Origin: Kocuria soli
Lineage (GTDB): Bacteria > Actinomycetota > Actinomycetes > Actinomycetales > Micrococcaceae
Length of the DNA stretch: 64,000 bases
Assembly: GCF_003797835.1 (NCBI RefSeq)
Contig: NZ_RKMF01000001.1
Coordinates: forward strand, 124,001 to 188,000
Direction: 5' to 3'
Shown: positions 2,261 through 49,799 of the stretch, in pieces
Position numbering within the stretch: position 1 is the stretch's first letter
Layout of the letters: the number at the start of each line of letters is the position of its first letter
The notes under the pieces: model-generated
Database searches by the model: none
The model's input: the letters and a program-made list of their open reading frames with translations, nothing else
What the model was told of the DNA's origin: nothing
Position numbers and translations under genes: made by a program

Positions 2261-4690
2261 TCACTGCCAGATGAAGCGCTGCGCCCCTGCCACGTGGGAG
2301 GCGATCGGGGCACCCACGGCGAGCGCCAGGGTGATCACGAGCAGCAGGGCATCTGCGGCACCACGGCGAATGGGCCGGGCCCAGGTGCGGTCCCGTGCCT
2401 CCACCACGGAGCCGAAACCCCTGGCCTCCATGGTCACCGCCAGTCGCGTCGCGCGTCGCAGAGCCTGGACAAGGAGCCCAAAGGCGCGGCCACCCCATTC
2501 CGCGAGAACCGTCCCTGGGTTCCGTGACGCCCCCGCACCCCGCGCGCGACGTGCCGTCACCAGAACCTGCCATTGCTTGATCATCACCGACATGAGCCGC
2601 AGCCCCACCAGGGCGGCGATCACGAACCGCGCGGGCAGGCGCAGGGTGCGGGCGAGTCCGTCCGCCAGGTCGGTGGGATCCGTGGTGAGGAGCAGCATCA
2701 GCCCGGGCAGCGCCAGGGCGAGCCCGCGCAGTGAGATCGCGGCCCCGGCCGCGACCGACCCCTGAGTCAGCGTCAGAGGCCCTACGGACACCAGCGGCGG
2801 GCCCGAGTCCTCGGCTAGGAGCGCGGTTCCCCACCCGGACAGCAGCGCGGCCAGGACCAGCGGCCAGGCGGCGAGCAACAGCCGCAGGGGACGTTGACCC
2901 GCCAGCGACAGTGCCGCGAGTTCGCCCAGCAGGATCAGCCCCGAGGTGATGGGGTCCGCCGAAAGGATCAGCGGGACAGTCAGTGCGACGGCGCACGCGA
3001 GCTTGGTGAGTGCGTCACGGCGTTCGAGCCAGCTTCCACCACCCCTGGTGGTCAGCGGAGCGGGAGCGTCCGGCTGCTCGACGGACGGCGCGGCGTGCAG
3101 CTCGATTTCCCGGGCACCCAGGGCGCGGATCAGGTCCCGGTCGTGGGTGACGACGACGACGGCTCGCCCCGCTCGCACCTGATCGGCCAGCAGGTCGACC
3201 ACCGACCACCACGTCCGTGAATCCTGCCCGAAGGTCGGTTCATCCAGAACCAGGATGTCGGGAGCAGCGGCCATGACGGTTCCCACCGACAACCGCCGCT
3301 TCTGCCCTCCGGAGAGGGTGAACGGATTGGCCTCGGCCAGGTCCGTGAGTTCCAGGCGTTGGAGCAGTTCCTCGACCGTGGAGTCGATCCGGTCCTGAGA
3401 CCACCCGGCTCGGCGGGGCCCCTCGGCCAGCTCGGCCCGGACGGATTGGGTGAGGAACTGGTGCTCGGGTTCCTGGAACACAGTGCCCACGCGGGTGACC
3501 AGTTCGCGGCCGGTCCACGCCGATGGATCCGCCACGGTGTCACCGGCCAGTGCGGGTTGCGCCTCGACCGTTCCGCCTGCCGGGACCAGAAGCCCCGCGA
3601 GGGTCAGGGCCAGGGTCGATTTCCCCACCCCGTTGTTCCCGGTCACCGCAGTTGCGCTCCCCCGGCGGACCGTGAGGTCCACGGGCCGCGCCGCGGGCGT
3701 TCCCGCGTTCAGGTGCTCTGGAACGGGCCTGCCACGGCGGGCCAGCCGTCGTCGTCCGGCGAGCGCCCGTGAGCCGGGCTGGTCCCGGGACACCTCGAGA
3801 CCGACGGCGCGCAGCAACGGTTCACCGTCCGTCGCCGGACTCACGACCGGTTCAGGTGCGGGCGCATCGGGAACCCACACGCCGCGCTCGAGCAGCACCC
3901 GGCGCCGCGCGGGGTCCCCGAAGACCTGCCCCGGGGTGCCGTCGTGCTCCACACCGCCCGCGCCGAGCACGACGACCCGCTCGACCAGGTCCGTCCAGAC
4001 CTCGGTGCGGTGCTCGACCACGATCAACGTCGCACCGGTCTGCACCGCGACCGCTTCGACGGCGTCGCGCACCGTGCGAACACCTTCGGGGTCGAGGTTG
4101 GCGGTGGGCTCGTCCAACAGGAGCAGCCTCGGCCGCATGGCGGTGACACCCGCCAGGGCGAGTCGCTGCTGTTGTCCACCGGACAGCGCCTCGGTGTCCC
4201 GGTCGAGCTCAACGGCCAGGCCGACGGCGTCCAGGGTCTCGGTGACCCTCGGCCAGATCTGCTCGGACGGGACGGCCAGGTTCTCCGGACCGAAGGCGAC
4301 GTCGTCGCCGACCCGCGCGAGCACGATCCCCGATTCGGGGTCCTGTTGGAGCAGCCCGGTCACGGTGGCCCGGTCGGCGGCCGGGGCGCCGTCGACGAGC
4401 AATTCTCCGAGCGGCCCCTCGGGGCCACCGGGCGCATCGCTTGCCCCTTGCTGAACCTCCAGCTCGTCGGTCTCGCGGCGTTCGAGGACACCGGCCAGGG
4501 CGTGGAGCAAGGTCGACTTGCCGACCCCGCTGGGGCCCACGAGCAGGACTTTCTCGCCCGGTCGGATCACCAGGTCCAGTCCACGGGGCGAGGGGAGAGC
4601 TCGCCCCGGATGCTGCCAGCCGAATCCCCGGGCTTCGACGAGTGCGCCCCGCGCCCCGTGAGCGGGTGTCTGTTCAGCGGAGCCCGACAC
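2261..4690 (-). CDS. Fused ECF transporter module: two ABC ATPases plus EcfT membrane domain (thiamine/HMP type)
   Basis: A ~809-residue energy-coupling factor protein. ATPase 1 has GPSGVGKST (about 52-60), LSGGQQQR (about 169) and LLLLDEPTANLD. ATPase 2 has GNNGVGKST (about 351-359), LSGGQKRR (about 460) and LVLDEPTFGQD. From about residue 560 to the end it is hydrophobic and EcfT-like, with the arginine-rich coupling region TARRARGAGAS. In Bacillus these parts are separate proteins (YkoD = A-A', YkoC = T). Here all three are on one chain. GTG 4690 lies 11 nt after the ykoE stop, and the reading frame upstream of it is non-coding ykoE antisense. With YkoE it would import thiamine or hydroxymethylpyrimidine. 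The TPP riboswitch upstream supports this. Confidence 0.9.
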   Translation of the reverse strand: MSGSAEQTPAHGARGALVEARGFGWQHPGRALPSPRGLDLVIRPGEKVLLVGPSGVGKSTLLHALAGVLERRETDELEVQQGASDAPGGPEGPLGELLVDGAPAADRATVTGLLQQDPESGIVLARVGDDVAFGPENLAVPSEQIWPRVTETLDAVGLAVELDRDTEALSGGQQQRLALAGVTAMRPRLLLLDEPTANLDPEGVRTVRDAVEAVAVQTGATLIVVEHRTEVWTDLVERVVVLGAGGVEHDGTPGQVFGDPARRRVLLERGVWVPDAPAPEPVVSPATDGEPLLRAVGLEVSRDQPGSRALAGRRRLARRGRPVPEHLNAGTPAARPVDLTVRRGSATAVTGNNGVGKSTLALTLAGLLVPAGGTVEAQPALAGDTVADPSAWTGRELVTRVGTVFQEPEHQFLTQSVRAELAEGPRRAGWSQDRIDSTVEELLQRLELTDLAEANPFTLSGGQKRRLSVGTVMAAAPDILVLDEPTFGQDSRTWWSVVDLLADQVRAGRAVVVVTHDRDLIRALGAREIELHAAPSVEQPDAPAPLTTRGGGSWLERRDALTKLACAVALTVPLILSADPITSGLILLGELAALSLAGQRPLRLLLAAWPLVLAALLSGWGTALLAEDSGPPLVSVGPLTLTQGSVAAGAAISLRGLALALPGLMLLLTTDPTDLADGLARTLRLPARFVIAALVGLRLMSVMIKQWQVLVTARRARGAGASRNPGTVLAEWGGRAFGLLVQALRRATRLAVTMEARGFGSVVEARDRTWARPIRRGAADALLLVITLALAVGAPIASHVAGAQRFIWQ

Positions 4691-4701
4691 CGCTGTTCCC
4701 G

Positions 4702-5337
4702 TCAACGCCCGGAAGCCAGGGCGGAAAGGACGCCGGTACCGCGCAGAGCCCGGACCAGCAGCCACATCGCCACACCCGCGATGACGGCACCCGAGAGGGT
4801 CGCCAGGGCCACGTACACCCCTTGGTGGGCAACAGGCCATTCGTAGTAGTAGAGCAGACACTCGGAGATGCTGCCGAACAGGCCGGACAAGGCACCCGCG
4901 GCCGCAGCCACGCCGAGGCCGGCCCGGCGGTACCGCACCGCGGCGAAGACCAGCTCGGCACCCAAACCTTGCACGATCCCGGAAATCACCACGGTCAGCC
5001 CGAAGTGAGTTCCCATGACACCTTCGAAGATCGCCGCGAGGAGTTCGCACAGCAGGGCGGCACCCGGTTTGCGGATGATGAGCCCGCCCAGGGTCCCGGC
5101 CACGAGCCATCCACCGAGCATCAGACCGGCGGCGGGCGGATACGCCACGGACGCACCGGTGATCACGGGGTAGATCAGATTGGACCAGGCCCAGAAGATC
5201 ACGCCACCGGCTGCGGCCAGGACGGCCAGCACCACCAGGTCCACCACCCGCCAGCGCAACGCGGCACCGGTGCGGGTCGCCCCGCGTGGAGAACCGTTCG
5301 AACCGGTTCCCGGGCTGTGAGATGTTGTTGAGGTCAT
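4702..5337 (-). CDS. ykoE: YkoE-type substrate-binding (S) component of the ECF thiamine/HMP transporter
   Basis: A 211-residue integral membrane protein with about six hydrophobic segments after a polar, low-complexity N-terminus of ~30 residues. Conserved YkoE features are visible: VIFWAWSNLIYP, AAGLMLGGWLVAG and a central FEGVMGTHFG segment that lines the substrate site in the family. ATG 5337 is preceded by AGGAGG with good spacing. It is the first gene after the TPP riboswitch and directly precedes the fused ECF engine. I infer uptake of thiamine or its pyrimidine precursor; the exact ligand is not decided by the sequence. Confidence 0.92.
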   Translation of the reverse strand: MTSTTSHSPGTGSNGSPRGATRTGAALRWRVVDLVVLAVLAAAGGVIFWAWSNLIYPVITGASVAYPPAAGLMLGGWLVAGTLGGLIIRKPGAALLCELLAAIFEGVMGTHFGLTVVISGIVQGLGAELVFAAVRYRRAGLGVAAAAGALSGLFGSISECLLYYYEWPVAHQGVYVALATLSGAVIAGVAMWLLVRALRGTGVLSALASGR

Positions 5338-5342
5338 GGTTT

Positions 5343-5386
5343 CCTCCTGCGGGGACGGACCGTCAGTCCGTCCCGGTCTCAGGAGG
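5343..5386 (-). promoter_or_regulatory. Shine-Dalgarno sequestering hairpin (riboswitch expression platform)
   Basis: On the minus strand CCTCCTG (5386-5380) can pair with CAGGAGG (5349-5343), which is the ribosome-binding site of ykoE. Between them is a perfect 9-bp hairpin, GGGACGGAC (5374-5366) with GTCCGTCCC (5360-5352), loop of 5. Together they form one interrupted stem that hides the ribosome-binding site, as expected for TPP control of translation. Confidence 0.75.
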
Positions 5387-5429
5387 GGGAGGTGGGAACC
5401 GGACGCAGCCGGTGCAACACCTCGAGATA

Positions 5430-5517
5430 CTCGACTCCCTTCGCCGGTACTAACCGGATCAGGTTCGAGGGTCTGCGGTCTCCCGCACTCTCAGCGCTCG
5501 CGCGCTCCCCTGTCGTT
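5430..5517 (-). ncRNA. TPP riboswitch (THI element)
   Basis: The minus strand contains the conserved core in order: CTGAGAG, a variable stem, ACCCTCGAACCTGATC, then CGGTTAGTACCGGCGAAGGGA. CGAC at the 5' end and GTCG at the 3' end close helix P1. This is the standard thiamine pyrophosphate aptamer. It lies about 95 nt upstream of ykoE, with a sequestering hairpin between. Confidence 0.96.
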
Positions 5518-5550
5518 CGTTTTCAGTGCTTGCCCACTCTACCAATGCGC

Positions 5551-5595
5551 GAGGGCCGGTTGCCGCCCGTTCTCACGGGTTGGCAACCGGCCCTC
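5551..5595. terminator. Long hairpin after the DUF4235 gene
   Basis: GAGGGCCGGTTGCC (5551-5564) pairs perfectly with GGCAACCGGCCCTC (5582-5595). A nested CCCGT/ACGGG stem fills the loop. There is no U-tract, so it would be a U-less terminator for the minus-strand gene. It also insulates the riboswitch promoter. Confidence 0.7.
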
Positions 5596-5621
5596 GACGA
5601 CCGTCTGCAAGGGGCCGAGTG

Positions 5622-5873
5622 TCAGGACTCGCCCTGGTTGCTTTGCATCTTGGTGACCTGACGGGTCACTGCCACACGCACCACCGTGGTGACCACGCCG
5701 GTGATCACGGCCCACAGCAGGATGTCAGCCCACCGCTCCTCAGGATCCGGGTTCTTGGCGGGCGGCGGGTTACCGGTGAGCTTTGCCCACACGGCACCCA
5801 GTCCCTTGTTCGCCGCCGTGACGCCCGCGAGGGACGCCGCGGTTCCGGCCAGGCCCACAACCTTGTCGTTCAT
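5622..5873 (-). CDS. DUF4235 family small membrane protein
   Basis: An 83-residue protein with two hydrophobic stretches: near the N-terminus (VVGLAGTAASLAGVTAA) and near residues 52-68 (ILLWAVITGVVTTVVRV). Between them is WAKLTGNPPPAKNPDPEE, which matches the W-x-x-x-TG-x-x-PP pattern of DUF4235. Function is unknown in the family. GGAGAG sits before ATG 5873. It lies just downstream of the mnh operon on the same strand, separated by a short hairpin. It may be read through from that operon or have its own promoter. Confidence 0.82.
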   Translation of the reverse strand: MNDKVVGLAGTAASLAGVTAANKGLGAVWAKLTGNPPPAKNPDPEERWADILLWAVITGVVTTVVRVAVTRQVTKMQSNQGES

Positions 5874-5921
5874 GTTCTCTCCTTACCCGGACGCGCAGGT
5901 CCGTGGTGGACGGGTGGCACG

Positions 5922-5942
5922 CCCAGTCCTTGCAGGACCGGG
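5922..5942 (-). terminator. Possible terminator after mnhG
   Basis: CCCAGTCC, TTGCA loop, GGACCGGG: an 8-bp stem with one A/C mismatch, 27 nt past the mnhG stop. No U-tract. Confidence 0.4.
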
Positions 5943-5968
5943 TGCACCAACGCGGTTCATGACAAACA

Positions 5969-6370
5969 CTAGCGCGACTGGTCCTCCGAGCCATCAGCCC
6001 ACTGCTCAAGTTGTGATTCGACCGGCGTGTTTTCGCGCAGAGCAATCGCCAGTTCGTCCTTGACCACGCCTTCCTCCTTGACGTGCTTGCTCCGGTAGCT
6101 GGCCCGTCCCACCATGTGAGCGCTGACGGGTGCCGTCAGGAGCATGAACACCCACCCCAGCAGGGCCAGCGGCAGCAGGGCCCACGCCCGGTTCATGACG
6201 ATCACGGCCAGCAGGACGCACAACAACCCGAGCACCTGGGGCTTGGTGGCCGCGTGCATACGCGTGAGGACATCCGGCAGTCGGACCAACCCCACCCCGG
6301 CGGCGAACGCCATGAGGCACCCCACCAGCAGTAATACGGATCCGACGACGTCCAGAACGGTCTGCATCAT
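5969..6370 (-). CDS. mnhG: Na+/H+ antiporter subunit G (MnhG/MrpG)
   Basis: The last subunit of the multi-protein Mrp antiporter in the plasma membrane. About 133 residues with three hydrophobic helices: VLDVVGSVLLLVGCLMAF, GLLCVLLAVIVMN and LPLALLGWVFMLLTAPVSAH. The family signature RLPDVLTRMHAATKPQVLG lies between helices 1 and 2. The charged C-terminal tail of ~40 residues is longer than in many homologues. ATG 6370 overlaps the mnhF stop (ATGA) and has GGAGGG upstream. Confidence 0.93.
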   Translation of the reverse strand: MMQTVLDVVGSVLLLVGCLMAFAAGVGLVRLPDVLTRMHAATKPQVLGLLCVLLAVIVMNRAWALLPLALLGWVFMLLTAPVSAHMVGRASYRSKHVKEEGVVKDELAIALRENTPVESQLEQWADGSEDQSR

Positions 6371-6723
6371 CGGCCCTCCGTCGCGGACGTGTCCTGCGTG
6401 CTCTGCCGCGGCGCCTCCGCGTCCTCCCAGGCCGAACCGCCACGACCCGCGTCCGGGTGTCGAGAGGGACGGGACTGCACGAATCGTGCGAAGGTCACGG
6501 AGGCCAGGAAACCCACCAGGGAGATCATCACCGTGAGAATCATGTAGTCCGTGGTGCCCTTCCACACCATGTCCACGCACACGGCCGCGGCCACGATGGC
6601 CAGCAGCACGTCACTGGCCAAGACACGGTCCAGCAGGGACGGCCCCTTGACCAGCCGGTACAGGACACCGACGGCGCCGCCGGAGAGCAGGAGCACCGCG
6701 GTCACCAGAACATAGGGGTTCAC
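6367..6723 (-). CDS. mnhF: Na+/H+ antiporter subunit F (MnhF/MrpF)
   Basis: A 118-residue membrane protein with three helices. It has the MrpF motif YRLVKGPSLLDRVLASDVL after helix 1, and VCVDMVWKGTTDYMILT between later helices. The tail after residue ~85 is polar. GTG 6723 overlaps the mnhE stop (GTGA), which shows translational coupling. It is one subunit of the hetero-oligomeric Mrp complex that exchanges cytoplasmic Na+ for H+. Confidence 0.92.
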   Translation of the reverse strand: MNPYVLVTAVLLLSGGAVGVLYRLVKGPSLLDRVLASDVLLAIVAAAVCVDMVWKGTTDYMILTVMISLVGFLASVTFARFVQSRPSRHPDAGRGGSAWEDAEAPRQSTQDTSATEGR

Positions 6724-7367
6724 GCTTCCACCTCCGAACGCCGGGGTGAGCTCAGGACGGCCAGGGGCCGACGTCGCCCCAGTCGTTGATCCTCCGCCTT
6801 GAGCAGGTCCAGCTCCTCCCGGGTGCCGATCACCCTGATCCACGCCGCCTCGGTCCGCAGCACACCGTTGCGGAAGGCTTCCACGTCGGCGTCGTCGTCG
6901 ACGTCCAGGGCATGGAAGTAGAGCGTTGCCGTGGATCGGTCGACCTCGATCAACACGGAACCCGGGATCACCCCCGTGGTGTTGCCGACGGCAGCGATCA
7001 TGAGGTCGTTGACCGTGCGGAGTTTGACCGCGACCAGTGCGCTCCGGACGTTGGGGCCCTTGCGGATCGCGACCCACAGAACCTGGAAGCTGGCCTTGAC
7101 CACCTGGTACAGGAACGTGACAGCCATGACCACGGCCTGGAGAACGTTGAAGCGATGGGACAGGGCGACCGGAGGCAGTGCCAGGACGCGGGTGACCAGC
7201 AGGGCGAAGATCACACCGACCACCAGGTTCTTGACCGTCAGCTCCCCCCACAGAACGGCCCAGACCACCACGAGCCACAGGATCAGGGGGATCTCGACGA
7301 CGAACCGGTGGGTGCGGCGCGGACCACCGCGGGACTCTGCTCCGGATTCGGCTCGGTTGCTGTTCAC
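6720..7367 (-). CDS. mnhE: Na+/H+ antiporter subunit E (MnhE/MrpE)
   Basis: 215 residues. Two or three hydrophobic helices occupy the N-terminal half (LILWLVVVWAVLWGELT and NLVVGVIFALLVTRVLAL), and a soluble domain follows. The MrpE features RKGPNVRSALVAVKL and TTGVIPGSVLIEVD are present. The C-terminal ~30 residues are basic and polar. GTG 7367 overlaps the mnhD stop. It assembles with subunits F and G at the end of the Mrp complex. Confidence 0.92.
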   Translation of the reverse strand: MNSNRAESGAESRGGPRRTHRFVVEIPLILWLVVVWAVLWGELTVKNLVVGVIFALLVTRVLALPPVALSHRFNVLQAVVMAVTFLYQVVKASFQVLWVAIRKGPNVRSALVAVKLRTVNDLMIAAVGNTTGVIPGSVLIEVDRSTATLYFHALDVDDDADVEAFRNGVLRTEAAWIRVIGTREELDLLKAEDQRLGRRRPLAVLSSPRRSEVEA

Positions 7368-9031
7368 GGTGCCACCTCCCGGCCGTCTGAGTCCCCGTCA
7401 CCGGCCGCTTGCTCCACCGGTCCCGACGGCGCCCCCTCCGGGCCCAGTACGGCTTCGACGTAGGCGCCCGGATTCACCAGGTTCTCGGCCGCGTTGTCCG
7501 CCACGGCGAACAACGGGCCGGCGAAGACGGTCAAGGCCACACCGATCACGACCAGCACGGCGGTCGGCCACACCATGAGGCGCGGGAGCAGGCTCACGGT
7601 CTGCCTGCCGCCCTCGTCCCGGGTGAGGGTCTGCACGGCCCCGGCACCCCAATGGCCTTCGCGGCTGGGGGCCAGGAGCACGGGGTCGGGGAAATCGGCG
7701 TCGTCCGTGGTGCGCAGGAACACGCGGTTCCACACGCGCATGAGTGCGATCAGCGTGAGCAGCGAGGTGAGCACCGCCCCGGAGATCACCACGTAGGTCT
7801 GCCACGTCGCGTTGTCCACACCGGCCTGGAACAACCCGATCTTGCCCAGGAACCCGGAGAACGGCGGGATGCCCCCCAGGTTGAGGGCTGGGATCATGTA
7901 GAGCACCGCCAGCACCGGGGCCAGCCGCGCCATGCCTCCCAGACGATCGGAGTTCGTGGACCCGCCCCGGCGTTCGATCAGCCCCGCGACCAGGAAGAGG
8001 CTGGTCTGGATGATGATGTGGTGGCCCACGTAGTAAACCACCGCGGCGAATCCCGCCGCCGTGCCCACCGCGATCCCGAAGACCATGTACCCGATGTGGC
8101 TCACCAGCGTGAACGACAACAGACGCTTGACGTCGATCTGGGCCAGCGCGCCCAGGATCCCCACGACCATGGTCAGCAGGGACACCCACATCAACAATCC
8201 GTTGATCTGCTCGCCGGGAAACAGCAGCGTCTCGGTCCGGATGATCGAGTACACGCCCACCTTGGTCAGCAGTCCGGCGAACACGGCCGTCACGGGCGCG
8301 GAGGCGGTCGGGTAGGAGTCGGGCAGCCAGAACGACAGCGGGAACACCGCGGCCTTGATCCCGAAGGCCACCAACAGCATCAGGTGCAGCTGCATCTGCG
8401 TCCCCACGGGCAGATCTGCGAGTTTCAGGCAGAGATCCGCCATGTTCACCGTTCCGGTGGCCGCGTAGACCATGGCGATTGCGATCAGGAACAGCACGGA
8501 GGAAATGATGGACACGACCACGTAGGTCACGCCCGCGCGGATGCGCTGGGTTGTGCCGCCCATGGTCATGAGCACGTAGGAGGCCACCAGGAAGATCTCG
8601 AACCCCACGTAGAGGTTGAACAGGTCCCCCGCCAGGAACGCGTTGGAGACACCGGCCACCAGGATCAGGTACGTGGGGTGGAAGATCGAAATGGGGCCCG
8701 CGGAATCGCCGTCAGCCACACCCTGTCCGGTGGCGTAGATCAGAACCGCCAGGGACACGATCGTGGAGACCACCAGCATCACGGCCGAGAGCTGGTCCAC
8801 GATCAGCACGATCCCGAACGGCGCCTCCCAGCCACCGAGGTTCACCGACGTGGGGGGCGCGTCCCAGGAGGTCGCCAGCACGAGCATTTCGACGGCGAGC
8901 GAGACCACCAGTGACCCGATGGCGACGAGGCGCTGCAACCGGTTGCGGTGGAAGAGCACCAGGGACAGGGCCGCGCCCACGAAGGGCACGATGATCGCCA
9001 GGGGGGCGAGCTGAGCGACGTCGATGCTCAT
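7364..9031 (-). CDS. mnhD: Na+/H+ antiporter subunit D (MnhD/MrpD), NuoN/NuoM-like
   Basis: A 555-residue polytopic membrane protein of the complex I antiporter-like family, with about 14 predicted helices. The core includes YVLMTMGGTTQRIRAGVTY, the lysine-bearing AAVFPLSFWLPDSYP segment and LLTKVGVYSIIRTETLLFP, all typical of MrpD. Conserved lysines and histidines in these helices carry protons in related subunits. The C-terminal ~100 residues add a soluble, acidic tail. ATG 9031 overlaps the mnhC stop. Confidence 0.95.
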   Translation of the reverse strand: MSIDVAQLAPLAIIVPFVGAALSLVLFHRNRLQRLVAIGSLVVSLAVEMLVLATSWDAPPTSVNLGGWEAPFGIVLIVDQLSAVMLVVSTIVSLAVLIYATGQGVADGDSAGPISIFHPTYLILVAGVSNAFLAGDLFNLYVGFEIFLVASYVLMTMGGTTQRIRAGVTYVVVSIISSVLFLIAIAMVYAATGTVNMADLCLKLADLPVGTQMQLHLMLLVAFGIKAAVFPLSFWLPDSYPTASAPVTAVFAGLLTKVGVYSIIRTETLLFPGEQINGLLMWVSLLTMVVGILGALAQIDVKRLLSFTLVSHIGYMVFGIAVGTAAGFAAVVYYVGHHIIIQTSLFLVAGLIERRGGSTNSDRLGGMARLAPVLAVLYMIPALNLGGIPPFSGFLGKIGLFQAGVDNATWQTYVVISGAVLTSLLTLIALMRVWNRVFLRTTDDADFPDPVLLAPSREGHWGAGAVQTLTRDEGGRQTVSLLPRLMVWPTAVLVVIGVALTVFAGPLFAVADNAAENLVNPGAYVEAVLGPEGAPSGPVEQAAGDGDSDGREVAP

Positions 9032-42328: not shown

Positions 42329-43714
42329 ATGACCGAGAACCTGAGCCACCTGCGAGATGTCCTGACCGACGCCGTCGTCGATGACCGCGACAAGGGCATC
42401 ATCCGCGCCAAGCGCGAGATCTTCACCGACGAGGAGATCTTCGAACTCGAGATGAAGTACATCTTCGAGGGCAACTGGATCTACCTGGCCCACGAGTCCC
42501 AGATCCCGAACGTCGGCGACTACTTCACCAACTACATCGGCCGTACGCCCGTGGTCATCACCCGCGACAAGGACGAGAACCTCAACTGCCTGGTGAACGC
42601 CTGTGCGCACCGTGGAGCCATGCTGTGCCGCCGCAAGACTGACAACCGCACCACGTTCACCTGCCCGTTCCACGGTTGGACCTTCCGCAACTCGGGCGAG
42701 CTGCTCAAGGTCAAGGACGGCCGCAACGGTGCCTACCCCGAGTCCTTCAACAAGGAGGGCTCGCACGACCTCACCAAGGTCGCACGCTTCGAGTCCTACC
42801 GCGGGTTCCTGTTCGGTTCCCTCAACCCGGACGTCAAGCCGCTCGAGGAGCACCTGGGCGACGCCACCAAGGTGATCGACTCGATCGTCGACCAGTCCCC
42901 CGACGGCCTGGAGGTCCTGCGCGGTGCCTCGACCTACACCTACGACGGCAACTGGAAGGTCCAGGCCGAGAACGGCGCCGACGGCTACCACGTGACCTCG
43001 GTGCACTGGAACTACGCCGCGACCACGTCCCGCCGGTCCTCCGGGGATTCGACCAACACCACCAAGGCCATGGACGCCGGCAAGTGGGGCAAGCAGAAGG
43101 GCGGGTTCTACTCCTTCGAGCACGGTCACCTGCTGCTGTGGCAGGAGTGGGGCAACCCGCAGGACCGCCCGCTGTGGGACCGCCGTGAGGAGCTCGTGGA
43201 GAAGTACGGGGATGAGATGGCCAACTTCATGGTCAACATCTCGCGCAACCTGTGCCTCTACCCGAACGTCTACATCATGGATCAGTTCTCCTCGCAGATC
43301 CGCACGTTCCGTCCGATCTCCGCCGACAAGACCGAGGTCACCATCTACTGCATCGCCCCCGAGGGCGAGTCCCCGGCGAACCGGGCCAACCGCATCCGTC
43401 AGTACGAGGACTTCTTCAACGCCTCCGGCATGGCGACCCCGGACGACCTCGAAGAGTTCCGCTCCTGCAACAAGACCTACTGGGCCACCAGCGCACCGTG
43501 GAACGACATGACCCGCGGCATGGAGCACGAGATCCAGGGCCCCGACGAGCAGGCCACCGCCCTGGGCATGACCCGGGTGCTGGCCTCCGGTGTCAAGACC
43601 GAGGACGAAGGGCTCTACCCGATCCAGCACGGCTACTGGCACGAGGTCATGGAGGCGGGGCTGTCCACCGAGGAAGATGCCGAAGCCGCCGAACCGAGCA
43701 CCGCCACGGCCTGA
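42329..43714 (+). CDS. benA: Benzoate 1,2-dioxygenase, large (alpha) subunit
   Basis: 461 residues. With BenB and the reductase BenC it adds O2 to benzoate, giving the cis-1,2-diol carboxylate. The Rieske centre is C92-x-H94 (ACAHRG) and C112-x2-H115 (TCPFHGW). The mononuclear iron site is [14 protein letters not shown], with D218, H221 and H226. Length and segments such as [14 protein letters not shown] match BenA/XylX. GAGGGAGCAG precedes ATG 42329. It is first in benABCDR. Confidence 0.97.
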
Positions 43715-43747: not shown

Positions 43748-44293
43748 ATGACTGACACCGCCGTTAAGGAGACCACCATGGCCGCGCTGATGAGCGTTGA
43801 GGACATCCAGGTGCTGGAGACCGTCCGGGCCTTCCTGCACCGCGAGGCACGACTGCTCGACGACCGCGACTTCGACGCGTGGATCGAGTGCTACCACCCG
43901 GACGCCGAGTACTGGATGCCGTCCTGGGACGTCGACGACACCCTGGTCACCGATCCGCAAACCGAGATCTCGCTGGTCTACTACCCCAACCGGGGTGGCC
44001 TCGAGGACCGCGTGTTCCGCATCAAGACCGACCGGTCATCGGCGACGTCGCTGCCCGAGCCCCGGCACAACCACAACCTCACGGACATCGAAGTCCTGGG
44101 TCGTGACGGGGACACCGTGCACGTCCGCTACAACTGGCTGACCGGCTACTTCCGTTACAACACGAACATGTACTACTGGGGCTACACCGAGGTCGACATC
44201 GACCTGGGCGGGGCACAGCCGCAGATCACCAAGAAGAAGGTCGTTCTGAAGAACGACTACATCCATCAGGTCATCGACATCTACATGACCTGA
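43748..44293 (+). CDS. benB: Benzoate 1,2-dioxygenase, small (beta) subunit
   Basis: 181 residues of the NTF2-like ring-hydroxylating beta subunit family, a structural partner of BenA. FLHREARLLDDRDFDAWIEC and DAEYWMPSWDVDD are typical. GAGGAG stands 7 nt before ATG 43748. A second ATG at 43778 would drop ten residues. It lies 33 nt after benA. Confidence 0.96.
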   Translation: MTDTAVKETTMAALMSVEDIQVLETVRAFLHREARLLDDRDFDAWIECYHPDAEYWMPSWDVDDTLVTDPQTEISLVYYPNRGGLEDRVFRIKTDRSSATSLPEPRHNHNLTDIEVLGRDGDTVHVRYNWLTGYFRYNTNMYYWGYTEVDIDLGGAQPQITKKKVVLKNDYIHQVIDIYMT

Positions 44294-44372: not shown

Positions 44373-45986
44373 ATGGCACATCAAGTAGCACTGAATTTCG
44401 AGGACGGCGTCACCAAGGTGATCCGCGTCGGCGATTTCGAGACCATCATGGACGCCGCGTACAAGGCGCGCATCAACATTCCCTCGGACTGCCGCGACGG
44501 CGCGTGTGGCACGTGCAAGTCCTTCTGCGATTCGGGCTCCTTCGATCCCGGCGACTTCGTGGACGACGCCATGACCGAGGAGGAGCTGGACAAGGGCTAC
44601 CTCCTGACCTGCCAGGCCCTCCCGGAATCCGACATGTCCGTGAACATCGCGGGGACCTCCGAGGCCGCGAAGACCTCGGCCGCGTCCTTCGCCTCCACGG
44701 TCACGACCCTCGATCGTCACTCGGACTCCACGATCTCGTTCTCCCTGGACGTCGAGAACCGGGGCGACCTGGCCTTCCTGCCCGGTCAGTACGTTAACAT
44801 CAAGGTCCCGGGCACCGACGAGGTCCGGTCCTATTCGATGTCCAGCGGCCCGGAGGTGGACGCGGCCTCCTTCATGGTCCGGATCTCCCCGCAGGGTGCG
44901 ATGTCCGAGTACCTGCGGGACCGCGCCGAGGTCGGCGACGCCGTCGAATTCACCGGCCCGTTCGGCTCCTTCTTCCTGCGTGAGCCGAAGCGCCCCCTCC
45001 TGCTGCTGGCCGGCGGCACCGGCCTGGCACCGCTGCTGTCGATCCTCGAGAAGCTCACCCAGAATCCTCCCGGTCACCCCGTTCACCTGATCTACGGGGT
45101 CACGCGTGAGGCCGACATCGTGGGTCTGGACTGGTTGCGTGACTACGAGTCGCGGCTGCCGGACTTCACCTGGGATCTCATCGCCTCCGAGGAGGGCACG
45201 TCCGCACCCCACACGGGCTACGTCACTGCGCTCATCGGCCCCGAGCACCTGCACGACGGCGACGTCGACATCTATCTGTGCGGTCCCCCACCCATGGTCA
45301 ACGCCGTGTCCTCGTGGATGGACGCCGAGGGTGTGAGCCCGGCCAACTTCTACTTCGAGCGCTTCGCTCCCAAGGAGAAGACCGGTGGCGACGCCGAGAC
45401 GGGCGCCCCCGTGCCCTCGGAGACCGTTGCCCACCGGGGCGAAGAGATTTCCGGAGCCGAGGCCGTCTCCTCGATGGAGACCGGGCGCCTGCAGTTCGGT
45501 GCCGCGGACACCGCCGCCCATCTCGACGCGCGGGCGGGGCTGGAGTCGGCGATCGTTCAGTTGATGATCGGCAAGACCACCGACGAACAGTTCCACAACT
45601 GGGAGCGTCTGGCCTCCGCCGTGGATTCCACGGTGGAGGACGGCAAGGTCGTGGACGCGGAGCAGTTCGTCACCACGAACTTCGCGTTCCACGAATACCT
45701 GTTCACCGTCGCCGAGAACCCCGTGCTGCTCGAGGCCTACCGGGGACTGGACACGCAACAGCAGATGTCGGCCACCATCTGGGACGGTTCCCCCATCCTC
45801 GAATCCGTCGCCCGGGACCACCACGACCTGGTCGAGGCGTTCCGCCGCCAGGACCTGGCTGCCGCCCTGGAGATCGTCCAGCGACACACCAGTGCCGCCA
45901 AGGACACCATGGAGACCGCTGTCGAATCCGCGCAGTCCGGCGAGCAGCAGTCGGGCGGGCAGCAGGATGGTGAGCAGAGCTCATGA
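44373..45986 (+). CDS. benC: Benzoate 1,2-dioxygenase reductase with C-terminal FCD-like domain
   Basis: 537 residues, about 200 longer than proteobacterial BenC (~340). Residues 1-95 are a plant-type [2Fe-2S] ferredoxin with C40, C45, C48 and C80. Residues ~105-335 are the FAD/NADH reductase: RSYSMSSGP (152-160), GGTGLAP (214-220), and CGPPPMV (303-309). It passes electrons from NADH to BenA. After a linker, residues ~380-515 resemble the FCD ligand-sensing domain of GntR/FadR regulators: LDARAGLESAIVQL, FAFHEYLFTVAENPVLLEAY and DHHDLVEAFRRQDLAAALEI with H440, H483/H484 and H505. No helix-turn-helix is attached. CAGGAG precedes ATG 44373. It overlaps benD (ATGA). Confidence 0.93.
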   Translation: MAHQVALNFEDGVTKVIRVGDFETIMDAAYKARINIPSDCRDGACGTCKSFCDSGSFDPGDFVDDAMTEEELDKGYLLTCQALPESDMSVNIAGTSEAAKTSAASFASTVTTLDRHSDSTISFSLDVENRGDLAFLPGQYVNIKVPGTDEVRSYSMSSGPEVDAASFMVRISPQGAMSEYLRDRAEVGDAVEFTGPFGSFFLREPKRPLLLLAGGTGLAPLLSILEKLTQNPPGHPVHLIYGVTREADIVGLDWLRDYESRLPDFTWDLIASEEGTSAPHTGYVTALIGPEHLHDGDVDIYLCGPPPMVNAVSSWMDAEGVSPANFYFERFAPKEKTGGDAETGAPVPSETVAHRGEEISGAEAVSSMETGRLQFGAADTAAHLDARAGLESAIVQLMIGKTTDEQFHNWERLASAVDSTVEDGKVVDAEQFVTTNFAFHEYLFTVAENPVLLEAYRGLDTQQQMSATIWDGSPILESVARDHHDLVEAFRRQDLAAALEIVQRHTSAAKDTMETAVESAQSGEQQSGGQQDGEQSS

Positions 45987-46930
45987 CCCGGGACTCCGAC
46001 GGGGCCGAGGCACCCGCACCCGAGGGCACCTCCGAGAACTCCTCGGGTGCACCCGCGGGCGGTACGGGGACAGATGTCTCCGGCATGCCGACGGTTGACG
46101 GGGCACCGGCAGCTCCCCGGGTCATCACGCCCGGTCGCTTCGCCGGGAAGGCCGTCGTCGTGACCGGTGCCGCTCAGGGCATCGGCCGTGCCGTGGCCGA
46201 ACGGATCGCGGCCGAAGGCGGCGAGGTGTTACTGGTGGACCGCTCCCCGGTCGTCGAGGACGTCGCAGCGGAGATCAACGCGCGAGCCGAGTCGTCCTCC
46301 GGCGGTTACGGGTACGCCTTGGCCCTGGCCGGGGTGGATCTCGAGCAGGAAGCAGGTGCCCGGAAGTTCGTCGAGGTGGCGCTGAAGGACTACGGGCGCA
46401 TCGACGTCCTGATCAACAACGTGGGCGGAACCATCTGGGCCCGGCCCTTCGAGGCCTACGACGCCGAGAAGATCCAGCGGGAGATCCAGAGGTCCCTGTT
46501 CCCCACGCTGTACTCCTGCCACGCGGTCCTGCCGACCATGCTGGAAGCAGGCAGCGGGACCATCGTGAACGTGTCCTCCATCGCCACGGGTGGCGTCAAC
46601 CGCGTGCCCTACGCCGCGGCCAAGGGTGGGGTCAATGCTTTGACCAAGGCCCTGGCCCTCGAGGTCGGCCGGCGAGGAGTCCGCGTCGTCGCGACGGCCC
46701 CGGGTGGCACGCTGGCCCCGCCACGGACGGTTCAGCGGGGTCCCGGACCGGAGGGTGAGCGGGAAGAGGCCTGGTACCGGGAGATCGTGGATCAGACCGT
46801 CGATTCGTCGTACATGAAGCGCTACGGAACCTTGGAGGAGCAAGCCGCGCCCATCGTGTTCATGGCCTCCGACGAAGCCTCGTACATCACGGGTTCGGTG
46901 CTCCCCGTCGGCGGTGGCGATCAGGGGTAG
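45983..46930 (+). CDS. benD: Benzoate cis-diol dehydrogenase (SDR)
   Basis: 315 residues. It oxidises and decarboxylates 1,6-dihydroxycyclohexa-2,4-diene-1-carboxylate to catechol with NAD+. The NAD site is VVVTGAAQGIGRAVAE (about 58-73). NNVGG and the catalytic S with Y-x3-K (VPYAAAKGG) are present. Residues 1-~48 form an Ala/Pro/Glu/Gly-rich extension absent from usual BenD (~260 residues); an internal ATG at 46085 could give a shorter form. ATG 45983 overlaps the benC stop, which supports the long form. Confidence 0.94.
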   Translation: MTRDSDGAEAPAPEGTSENSSGAPAGGTGTDVSGMPTVDGAPAAPRVITPGRFAGKAVVVTGAAQGIGRAVAERIAAEGGEVLLVDRSPVVEDVAAEINARAESSSGGYGYALALAGVDLEQEAGARKFVEVALKDYGRIDVLINNVGGTIWARPFEAYDAEKIQREIQRSLFPTLYSCHAVLPTMLEAGSGTIVNVSSIATGGVNRVPYAAAKGGVNALTKALALEVGRRGVRVVATAPGGTLAPPRTVQRGPGPEGEREEAWYREIVDQTVDSSYMKRYGTLEEQAAPIVFMASDEASYITGSVLPVGGGDQG

Positions 46931-46934
46931 GACC

Positions 46935-49799
46935 GTGAGCCCGGTGACCCTGGATACCATCTGGCTCATGGTCGACGACGCCGCTCCCTCCACGCTCAAC
47001 CACCCCATGGTGGGGCGTGAGGGTGAGTTGGACGTGCTGCGGGAGCTCTACCGGGACGTCAAGAAGGGGATGAGCCGCGCCGTGGTCCTGCACGGGCCGT
47101 TGGGCAGCGGCAAGTCGCGGCTGGTCGCCGAGTTCCTGGCCGAGGTGCGCACACGCTCCACCACGGTGCTGTCCATGGTCGGTGACGAATGGGAATCCTC
47201 GCTTCCGCTGGCCGGGTACACCCAGTTGATGTCCACCGCCCCGCTGCGCAGCTCCAAGGGCTTCGACGGCGGCGCCCTCCCGCCGTCGACCGTGAGCGTG
47301 GACCTGAGCGCCGATCAGGCGGTCAATTACGCCCAGACGTTGCAGATCCACCTGGAGCAACTGCAGAAGCGCGGCCCCGTGATTGTGGTCGTGGACGACC
47401 TCCAGTGGGTGGACGAGGCGACATTGCGCATTCTGGTGTTCACGGCCCGACGGCTGCACGGCGCCAAGGTCATGTTCGTGTTCACCATGGACACGGAACA
47501 GACGGAAAAGATCCCCGTGGGGGTCCTCGACTACGTGGCCGGGCACCAGGTGCGCGCGATCGTCCTGCCACCGCTGACGGTCGAGGCCGTGGGACAGCTG
47601 GGCCGCAACCTGTTGGGAACGGACCTGGACGTGACCACGGTGCGTTCCTTGATCGAGCACACCGAGGGCAGGCCGCTGCGCCTGGTGGAGCTCATGCGAG
47701 AGATCCCCCATGACCACTGGCAGGGCCGGTTGCCCGATCTCCCGCCGAGCCGGCGGGTACGAGCACGGGTGAGAGCCCAACTCGCACGGGCCTCCGAAGA
47801 CCTGGTCACCGTGGCCCGTGCGGTGTCGGTGCTCGGGCCGAGTGCCCAACTGCACGCCGTGGCCGAGATCGCCCAGGTTCCGGACGCCTTGGCCTGTCTG
47901 GACGAAGGCCACGAGCTGCACCTGCTGCGATTCACGGTGTCCCAGACGCACAGCGAGGTGACCTTCACGGAGCCCGGCGCTGCACAAGCCGTGTACGACT
48001 CCATCCCGCCAACCGTGCGCATCGAACTGCACCGCACGGCGGCCCGCGTGGTCACGGACCCGGGCGAGCAACTCAACCACCGGGTCTCGGCAACGCCCGG
48101 CCCTGACGCCGAGCTGGCCGACGCCCTGGAGTCCTACGCCACCGTTCAGGCGCGCGCGGGTGCGTGGGCCGACGTCGCCACCGCGATGCTGGCCGCCTCC
48201 CGCCTGTCCGGCGACCGACGTCAGAAGGACCTTCGCCTGCTGCAGGCCGTGGACGCCATGGTCGGTTCCGGGGACCTGACCCAGGCCGCCACCTACCTGG
48301 GCACGATCGAGTCCCTGCCCTCCTCGCCCCTCCGATCGACCGTTCTGGGCTACCTGGCCGTGGTGACGGGTCAGTTCGCCAGCGCCAAAGCACACCTGGA
48401 CATGGCCTGGCGCACCGTCCGCCCCGAGCACGACCCCTCCACGGCAGCGCGCATCGCCCAGCGTCAGGTGCTGCACGGTCTGGCCAATTGGGACGGTCCG
48501 GCCATGGTCGACTGGGCGCACCAGACGTTGGCATTGGTCGATCGGGCCGAACCCGTGTGGGTCGAGGCCGAAGCGATCCACGGGCTCGGCCTGTTCGCGA
48601 ACCACCAGGTGGCCGAGACGGACGCCCTCTACCGCAGGCACATGTCCGAAGTTGCCGAGACGGCCCAGAAGCAGCGGATCCAGATGGGCTACGCCTGGTT
48701 CGCGTTGCGCACCGACGACGTCGAAGCCGCTCACCTGCACTTCGAGGCCGCCGTCCCCACGGAGTACCGCGGCGGTTCGCTCAGGATCTCCCTGTGGGCC
48801 GAGGCCTGGCTGGCCCGGTGCCAGCTCGTGCTCGGCGACTGGGACGCCGCTGCTGCCACCATCGCCCGCGCGTCAGTGCGGTTGGAGGGCTCCGGCATGC
48901 GTCTGATCCGTCCCCTGCTGTACTGGACCGCGGCCGAACTGTACGCGATGCGCGGCGACTGGGCCCGGTCCCAGCACTACGTCCAGCTGACCACGGCTCC
49001 CTCCGACGGATACCGCGCCATGGCAGTCCCCGCGGCGCTGGCCCGCGCCCGGTATCACGAGGCCCGGGCGGACTACGAAAGCGCCTACGAGGCCATTCAC
49101 CCGTTGTTGACCTCCGACCCTCAGACGCACGAGCGCTCGTCGTTCTGGCCGTGGCAGGACACGATGGTCAACGTCTTGGTCATGACCGACCGGCTGGAGG
49201 CTGCGCAGGAGTTCTTGGGTTCGATCGAGGCCGCATCTCCGGAAACACAGTCGGATACCGACAAAGCACGTCTTGCCTGGGCCCGGGGTCGGTTGCTGGC
49301 AGCCCAAGGCGATGCCGACGAGGCGCGTGAACACTTCGAAAGAGCCCTCGAGTACCTGCACCCGCACCACCGGCCCTACCTCAAGGCCAGGATCTGCTTC
49401 GCCTTCGGGCAGAGCATGCGCCGGGCCGGCAAACGCCGACTGGCCTCCTCGGTGCTGCGGACGGCCCGGGAGTTGTACGTCGCACTCGGCGCCAAGACCT
49501 ACGTCGCGCGCTGCGATCGGGAGCTCAAGGCCGCCGGTGTCGACACCGATGCCGGAGTCCTGGCCCAGGAACTCGGTGCCGACGGCCCTCGATTGTCGCA
49601 ACGCCCGGACACCGTGTCCTTGACGCCCCAGGAGCAGGCGGTTGCGCAGTTCGTGGCGAAGGGCGCGACGAACAAGGAGGTGGCACGGGCGCTGTTCATC
49701 GCCGAGAAGACGGTGCAGTACCACCTGACGCGCATCTACGGGAAGTACGGCATCCGCTCACGCAGCGAACTCGCGGCGCTCTACCGGCCGCAACAGTGA
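46935..49799 (+). CDS. benR: LuxR-family ATPase regulator, probable activator of ben genes (BenR-like)
   Basis: About 954 residues, the MalT-like large LuxR (LAL/STAND) class. Walker A is GPLGSGKS (about 54-61) and Walker B VVVDDLQWVDE (about 150-160). A long helical repeat region follows. The C-terminal LuxR DNA-binding domain is LTPQEQAVAQFVAKGATNKE followed by VARALFIAEKTVQYHLTRIY. Corynebacterium glutamicum has a BenR of the LuxR family at the same position after benABCD, so it is likely the benzoate-responsive activator. GTG 46935 starts 4 nt after the benD stop with AGGGG upstream; GTG 46914 and ATG 46968 are alternatives. Confidence 0.88.
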   Translation: MSPVTLDTIWLMVDDAAPSTLNHPMVGREGELDVLRELYRDVKKGMSRAVVLHGPLGSGKSRLVAEFLAEVRTRSTTVLSMVGDEWESSLPLAGYTQLMSTAPLRSSKGFDGGALPPSTVSVDLSADQAVNYAQTLQIHLEQLQKRGPVIVVVDDLQWVDEATLRILVFTARRLHGAKVMFVFTMDTEQTEKIPVGVLDYVAGHQVRAIVLPPLTVEAVGQLGRNLLGTDLDVTTVRSLIEHTEGRPLRLVELMREIPHDHWQGRLPDLPPSRRVRARVRAQLARASEDLVTVARAVSVLGPSAQLHAVAEIAQVPDALACLDEGHELHLLRFTVSQTHSEVTFTEPGAAQAVYDSIPPTVRIELHRTAARVVTDPGEQLNHRVSATPGPDAELADALESYATVQARAGAWADVATAMLAASRLSGDRRQKDLRLLQAVDAMVGSGDLTQAATYLGTIESLPSSPLRSTVLGYLAVVTGQFASAKAHLDMAWRTVRPEHDPSTAARIAQRQVLHGLANWDGPAMVDWAHQTLALVDRAEPVWVEAEAIHGLGLFANHQVAETDALYRRHMSEVAETAQKQRIQMGYAWFALRTDDVEAAHLHFEAAVPTEYRGGSLRISLWAEAWLARCQLVLGDWDAAAATIARASVRLEGSGMRLIRPLLYWTAAELYAMRGDWARSQHYVQLTTAPSDGYRAMAVPAALARARYHEARADYESAYEAIHPLLTSDPQTHERSSFWPWQDTMVNVLVMTDRLEAAQEFLGSIEAASPETQSDTDKARLAWARGRLLAAQGDADEAREHFERALEYLHPHHRPYLKARICFAFGQSMRRAGKRRLASSVLRTARELYVALGAKTYVARCDRELKAAGVDTDAGVLAQELGADGPRLSQRPDTVSLTPQEQAVAQFVAKGATNKEVARALFIAEKTVQYHLTRIYGKYGIRSRSELAALYRPQQ

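Follow-up and report, generated by a model that had tools for sequence, protein, structure and literature searches.

The window, by which we mean the whole 64,000-nucleotide stretch of Kocuria soli DNA that was analysed, holds a ben cluster in which five genes, from benA to a regulator gene, lie on the forward strand. The genes for the large and small oxygenase subunits, benA (42329..43714; TIGR03229, 819.2 bits against a cut-off of 780.95) and benB (43748..44293; TIGR03232, 240.6 bits against 225.55), are followed by benC (44373..45986), by benD for the diol dehydrogenase (45983..46930; NF040811, 404.7 bits against 380), and then by a large gene for a LuxR-type ATPase regulator with the Pfam domains AAA_16, TPR and GerE (46914..49799). 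Both catA and a gene like that for muconate cycloisomerase belong to the same cluster, and a LysR gene is nearby. The benD frame overlaps the benC stop, and the BenD match begins only at its residue 50-52; the true start may lie later.

A Shine-Dalgarno-like aggag stands immediately 5′ of the benC ATG, and the open frame encodes 537 amino acids. Residues 3-333 are covered by the NCBIfam model for BenC, NF040810 (468.5 bits against a cut-off of 430; model positions 1-332 of 333). Within them lie a [2Fe-2S] ferredoxin domain (residues 9-84, 44397..44624; PF00111, E 1.3e-14), whose cysteines C40, C45, C48 and C80 are invariant in 28 of 28 rows of an alignment (A2), an FAD-binding domain (residues 110-200, 44700..44972; PF00970, E 1.9e-16) and an NAD-binding domain (residues 211-313, 45003..45311; PF00175, E 1.5e-19). 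Residues 1-333 are like the BenC/XylZ reductases (NF040810), with the three cofactor domains in the same order and the gene in a benABCD cluster, but the window protein is about 200 residues longer. An earlier note on this DNA had called the reductase too long by that amount; the reductase part is of normal length, and the excess is indeed about 200 residues.

A linker (residues 334-375, 45372..45497) lies between the BenC match and that of an FCD effector-binding domain (residues 376-515, 45498..45917, a boundary taken from the profile of fused FCDs). The Pfam match (PF07729) spans residues 384-506 and model positions 3-123 of 125, with E 8.5e-17 and 62.2 bits against a gathering cut-off of 24.3; the C-terminal 188 amino acids searched alone gave E 1.2e-17. 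In the linker a conserved ETG stretch directly precedes the FCD, and its G is invariant in 14 of 14 rows (alignment A3). The FCD that the earlier note had read from the C terminus is borne out by this match, and so is its statement that a DNA-binding domain is lacking: neither the whole protein nor its C-terminal part matched GntR or another helix-turn-helix family at E up to 1. A misread frame, a frameshift or contamination can be set aside, since the frame is single and open, GC3 is equal in the two parts (0.90 in the FCD, 0.89 in the reductase) and the architecture is repeated in many genomes. Phage families gave no match. The best named homologues of the window BenC belong to Kocuria (84% identity over the best segment).

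By the Nei-Gojobori method, 19 overlapping pairs gave dN/dS values of 0.037-0.329 for the FCD (median 0.107) and 0.045-0.216 for the reductase (median 0.084), the FCD lying above the reductase in 14 pairs and below it in 5. The linker (12-56 codons) lay below the FCD in 9 pairs and above it in 10, and is not simply free. Many genera have the module at the corresponding place, with dN/dS below 1 in 19 of 19 pairs, and chance does not account for the tail. It is real, conserved and under selection.

The predicted effector site

The metal-binding subgroup of FCDs is marked by an Asp or Asn together with three His, and the window domain has Asn436 (45678..45680), His440 (45690..45692), His483 (45819..45821) and His505 (45885..45887) as its expected metal ligands. 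Arg387 (45531..45533), at the position of NanR Arg128 and Atu1419 Arg86, is the residue expected to meet the carboxylate of a ligand, and Thr512 (45906..45908) falls where Atu1419 has its citrate-contacting Asn221. This mapping comes from a profile alignment to NanR, which covers the central and C-terminal part, with Arg387, Phe432 and Thr512 placed by spacing only. According to published accounts, NanR is a dimer with a site for Zn and sialic acid, in which Asp172, His176, His222 and His244 hold the Zn and Arg128 takes the ligand carboxylate; in Atu1419, Asn137, His141, His192 and His214 bind Zn, Arg86, Tyr133 and Asn221 also contact bound citrate, and changing the three metal His lowers the Tm by almost 20 degrees. 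The Asn or Asp is 4 residues from the first His, and the second His 22 from the third, in all three proteins; the distance from first to second His is 43 in the window FCD, 46 in NanR and 51 in Atu1419. Thus the Asn-His-His-His set of Atu1419, an FCD-GntR regulator of the VanR group, maps by spacing onto N436, H440, H483 and H505, and its citrate-contacting Arg and Tyr onto R387 and F432, although Atu1419 has a DNA-binding domain of its own and no enzyme part. A search of PDB sequences gave two weak matches with the single domain and nine with a profile (E 9.5e-5 to 0.0044).

These residues are closely kept among 122 distinct fused FCDs, which come from 131 loci with Arthrobacter relatives heavily sampled. 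His440, His483, His505 and Thr512 are each present in all 122, Arg387 in 121, and Asn436 in 119 (Thr in the other three); position 432 is always Phe or Tyr, the mean pairwise identity of the domains being 0.51 (1500 sampled pairs). Six His occur in the window FCD, and the three that are invariant are among the histidines to which the earlier note had drawn attention. The chance that three preassigned positions all fall among the 10 invariant ones of 149 columns is 2e-4 if relatedness is ignored. Thr512 is found on the BenC and P450 types and on three of four flavin reductase types (see below), with another residue in 14 of 14 aligned GntR FCDs; Asn at the 436 position also occurs in 10 of the 14.

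The same note had remarked that Asn436 replaces the usual metal Asp. The residue does align with NanR Asp172, but the exchange is an ordinary functional variant and no defect. We reject a dead metal site, since Atu1419 binds Zn with Asn-His-His-His and since Asn144 of PS5454 is described as involved in Ni binding. CitO was dropped as a further parallel, its Asn147 seeming, as we read its description, to occupy the first-His position. Judged by its residues, the metal and effector site of the window FCD looks complete, not degraded.

Distribution and descent of the fused domain

In the Micrococcaceae, the family of the window, a BenC-like match (E 1e-60 or better) was obtained in 41 of 197 genomes. 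The match spans the FCD, reaching residue 517 or beyond, in 25 of the 41, the window's own genome included, and ends at residue 333-367 in the other 16. Nine of these 16 were read to the stop codon and seven judged by the end of the alignment; the 10 loci read in the nine genomes encode 342-363 amino acids and no FCD. A second actinobacterial family (f6) has a BenC match in 82 of 251 genomes, and at least 64 of the 82 are fused to an FCD: 28 are of the form BenC-FCD, 6 BenC-long linker-FCD, 29 BenC-linker-FCD-BenD and one (G808) is fused by alignment only, with 3 unfused, one outlier (L104) and 14 unclassified (10 long frames and 4 at a contig start). BenC itself is patchy, since a phylum-wide draw found it in just 5 of 396 genomes, the window and L104 among them. 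Named carriers of the fused form include Kocuria, Micrococcus, Arthrobacter, Pseudarthrobacter, Citricoccus, Nesterenkonia, Brevibacterium, Corynebacterium lubricantis and Enemella. The suggestion that the tail is general in actinobacterial BenC thus describes many carriers in both families but not all, unfused BenCs being present inside the same clade. The FCD is absent from the 21 proteobacterial BenC loci examined, the P450 type excepted. The counts retain L001, which is the window copy, and leave out L089 (broken between frames), L099 and L100 (truncated duplicates of L102 and L103), L101 (a duplicate of L104) and L138 (at a contig edge).

Unfused BenCs measure 333-363 amino acids (34 loci, L104 aside). 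The fused proteins come in four architectures: BenC-FCD (511-556 amino acids), BenC-long linker-FCD (636-707), BenC-linker-FCD-BenD (860-945) and, in Burkholderiaceae, BenC-like reductase-FCD-cytochrome P450 (929-933 in the three measured, L069 6001-8802, L070 894-3683 and L135 10001-12790). The BenD fusions (L102, L103, L144-L170 and L071) join an NADH-using and an NADH-making step in one chain. Their linkers before the FCD run to 113-197 residues, are rich in Ala, Pro and Glu where examined, and in several cases have a loose GQ..F motif. A helix-turn-helix hidden in the linkers was sought and none was found, either in the window protein at E 1 or in L069, L070, L071, L099, L100 and L067 at E 0.001. 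Two loci stand apart. L104 (4298-6817) encodes a BenC-like reductase of 839 residues (35% identity) that ends in an FAD_binding_2-like part and lacks an FCD; L089 (about 6001-7558), from Pseudarthrobacter sp. Fe7, is a benC-FCD broken between frames, either a pseudogene or a sequencing error.

The P450 fusions were found in 10 of 249 Burkholderiaceae genomes, with at most 16 candidates scored per genome, and all three parts were matched in 10 of 10; L216-L223 are known from matched parts only. Such fusions also occur on five Paraburkholderia plasmids (86.6-87.5% identity). Identity to L069 is 87-93% for the FCD, 89-93% for the P450 part and 83-89% for the reductase. The layout is unusual for a self-sufficient P450 in having a sensor-type domain in the middle. 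One of these genes is annotated plainly as benC; its neighbours encode a helix-turn-helix protein, an SDR and an FAD-dependent oxidoreductase, and no benA or benB match was found in the 22.8 kb around it. A split version of the fusion was considered for a Rhodococcus USK10 P450 (49% identical) and rejected, there being no BenC-FCD match in the 17 kb around it.

In a tree of the reductase parts, the 37 actinobacterial BenCs (L104 aside) form one clade (support 100/97). Unfused BenCs lie inside it, with four changes of label in the best tree, two of them forced by well-supported branches. From these sequences the pattern reads most simply as one gain of the tail and repeated loss, on counts that cannot tell gain from loss. 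The P450-type reductases fall outside the clade, which leaves two histories: two separate joinings of the module, or loss of an older fusion in other lineages. A first tree of the FCDs, from which the partial L201 and L205 were excluded, placed 35 fused domains on one side of a branch and 19 GntR FCDs on the other (90/99, below the starred level of support). A wider tree with relatives from deeper in the actinobacteria gave a clade (100/99) of BenC-FCD, reductase-FCD-P450, four flavin reductase-FCD proteins and two GntRs, which were confirmed as plain GntR; its rows were picked as nearest to the fused-FCD profile, which favours such a clade. Its internal branching order is weak, and in this tree the domains of the BenC and P450 types are no longer united in one group.

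The nearest other FCDs to that of BenC are on flavin reductases (396 genomes drawn, with at most 10 candidates scored per genome), and proteins of this type account for 4 of the 12 matched genomes among the 396. In L234 (protein 6102-7280 and region 4610-6058, both on the reverse strand) the matches are Flavin_Reduct (E 5e-44), GntR (4e-9) and FCD (3e-18), and an HpaB oxygenase adjoins. A Dietzia plasmid protein annotated "flavin reductase" (L243, 4953-6143) likewise has the flavin reductase, GntR and FCD parts. GntR is over the cut-off in L234, L237 and L243, under it in L235, the same gene as L209 (16.5 against 27 bits), and not listed for L236 at E 1e-5. An HpaB-like stretch (31%) lies near L235, on the opposite strand. 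The five proteins L234, L235, L236, L237 and L243, from deep actinobacteria and, in the last case, the Dietzia plasmid, are like BenC-FCD in their N-terminal reductase and in having the same metal-site residues, with one beside HpaB, but the reductase fold is another one and a GntR helix-turn-helix scores over the cut-off in three of them. On a Pseudarthrobacter chlorophenolicus A6 plasmid with aromatic-degradation genes, L244 (4968-5747) encodes a flavin reductase that matches residues 16-236 of the L234 protein and has neither GntR nor FCD (Pfam, E 1e-5), possibly a shortened relative of L234.

Electron delivery as a possible point of control

When electrons flow in the absence of substrate, ring-hydroxylating dioxygenases can squander NADH and produce peroxide, and control of the benzoate pathway has been described mainly as transcriptional. 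A long BenC is not new. Haddad, Eby and Neidle are said to have described in 2001 a BenC homologue, BopZ of Rhodococcus sp. 19070, that is 201 residues longer than BenC/XylZ and about 60 kDa in size; its C terminus was reportedly called unlike known sequences, and BopZ made in E. coli reportedly raised cytochrome c reductase activity. The window tail differs from what is reported of BopZ in being assigned to the FCD family with a complete set of effector-site residues. Genera g287 and g291, which we take to be Rhodococcus, hold BenC-FCD proteins of 511-548 amino acids. We know of no biochemistry of the BenC tail, and a search of the open-licence literature, where absence is weak evidence, found no functional study of it. 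The accessible part of a paper on Rhodococcus TG-1 prints the benC product as "FCD domain-containing protein" and there passes over the tail without comment. As far as we have seen, then, the tail is partly known already, through annotation and through a reportedly unexplained extension, and functionally unstudied in the literature searched.

There is also a precedent for a sensor domain on such an enzyme. HpaC of Acinetobacter baumannii, the C1 component of 4-hydroxyphenylacetate 3-hydroxylase, joins a flavin reductase to a MarR domain at its C terminus; according to a review, 4-hydroxyphenylacetate bound to the MarR tail lifts self-inhibition, and flavin reduction becomes at least 30-fold faster (PMC10816480). 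HpaC and BenC-FCD share a layout, in that each serves an aromatic hydroxylase as its reductase and ends in a domain of transcription-factor type. They differ in both parts (MarR on a flavin reductase, FCD on an iron-sulfur flavoprotein), and BenC-FCD may work as HpaC does but is no member of its family. The flavin reductase-GntR-FCD proteins seem to parallel HpaC, with an FCD where HpaC has its MarR tail. The earlier note had presented allosteric control of electron flow as a novel arrangement, which goes too far given the printed FCD annotation and the substrate-sensing tail of HpaC.

With these likenesses in mind, we place just on the probable side the reading that the window BenC is an effector-gated reductase, probably one that senses benzoate. 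Its N-terminal part would act as that of every BenC does, passing electrons from NADH through FAD and the [2Fe-2S] centre to the BenAB oxygenase. The FCD would hold a buried divalent metal through Asn436, His440, His483 and His505, and the metal, Arg387 and Thr512 would bind a small carboxylate, most probably benzoate and less probably a pathway product. Benzoate is the first candidate, since regulators use both Arg387 and the metal for carboxylates. The ligand would close the helical bundle, which would alter the contact of the FCD with the FAD/NAD part and release autoinhibition; NADH would then be spent only when something to hydroxylate is present. We infer each of these elements, namely occupancy by metal and ligand, the identity of the ligand, and the existence and direction of the gating. 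Effector-gated electron delivery seems the best reading because the layout of HpaC is shared, the effector-site residues are complete and the nearest kin sit on flavin reductases; in addition, the occurrence of the module behind reductases that serve BenAB, BenAB with a fused BenD, and P450 suggests that what is controlled is electron delivery. Several points tell against the reading. Unfused BenCs are nested among fused ones, so the FCD is not essential to the reaction itself. The FCD evolves faster than the reductase in most pairs, and in 9 of 19 its dN/dS exceeds even that of the linker. The cytochrome c reductase activity reported for BopZ in E. coli gives no sign that the enzyme is fully blocked when ligand is absent.

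It also speaks against gating that FCDs form dimers, and that the metal site could be kept for a structural role. The domain might serve dimerisation or docking, with a structural metal and no sensing, and might pair reductases or bring the reductase to its oxygenase, BenD or P450. FCD regulators are dimers (NanR) or tetramers and the metal stabilises the fold (Atu1419), the FCD sits between the reductase and a second enzyme in the BenD and P450 fusions, and the long Ala/Pro/Glu-rich linkers of the former would fit a tether. A structural metal, however, needs no ligand-facing Arg387 or Thr512, residues kept in 121 and 122 of the 122 domains; the fixation of Thr512 on the BenC and P450 types, set against its replacement in every aligned GntR FCD, tells in the same direction, and plain BenC-FCD has nothing fused behind the FCD. 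We regard this explanation as the main rival and on balance rather unlikely. It is improbable, in our view, that the FCD responds to catechol or cis,cis-muconate by closing the reductase down, which would make it a device of feedback inhibition instead of one opened by benzoate. Genes for catA and a muconate cycloisomerase-like enzyme do stand in the same cluster, and since FCDs bind tricarboxylates (citrate in Atu1419 and CitO, by published accounts), the dicarboxylate muconate could fit; yet the module also occurs on P450 and HpaB-type systems, where muconate is not an obvious product, and the precedent, HpaC, responds to substrate.

Two further explanations carry far less weight. Descent shared with GntR regulators could suggest that the tail reports to transcription, by competing for an effector or pairing with such regulators, but the benC product has no helix-turn-helix, and relatives of the LuxR-type regulator occur alongside 69 of the 75 fused loci from actinobacteria (those over 7 kb that hold benA) and alongside 6 of 6 unfused ben clusters, the one at L139 being weak (28% over 236 amino acids). 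Nor did the A1 profile (E 1e-3), which distant FCDs could escape, find a second FCD gene in 107 loci over 7 kb, save in the frame-broken L089. We think this explanation very improbable. The LuxR-type counts have no pattern, and a swap of regulators was dropped as the cause of tail absence. That the tail is a functionless relic is hardly credible: it is missing from several lineages nested among fused ones, as a relic might be, but dN/dS below 1 in all 19 pairs and invariant effector residues across four architectures contradict it.

A broader proposal extends the effector-gated reading of BenC, and we offer it tentatively, as something that may well not hold. The FCD would be a portable metal-and-carboxylate gate, derived from a GntR regulator fused to a flavin reductase and passed among unrelated reductases with its DNA-binding part shed, that controls electron delivery in Rieske dioxygenases (BenC-FCD and BenC-FCD-BenD), in reductase-FCD-P450 proteins and in two-component hydroxylases. 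From the flavin reductase types to BenC-FCD, the GntR part forms a series, over the cut-off, under it and then absent.

If the FCD is an effector gate, it adds a fast second gate to the textbook benzoate pathway, and it would explain a 200-residue extension that has no described function in the literature searched. Unfused BenCs nested among the fused ones are natural controls, and the tail offers a ready sensor for the engineering of oxygenases and P450s. Many actinobacteria may switch the flow of electrons to their benzoate oxygenase directly, by means of a small molecule, beside the control of its genes.
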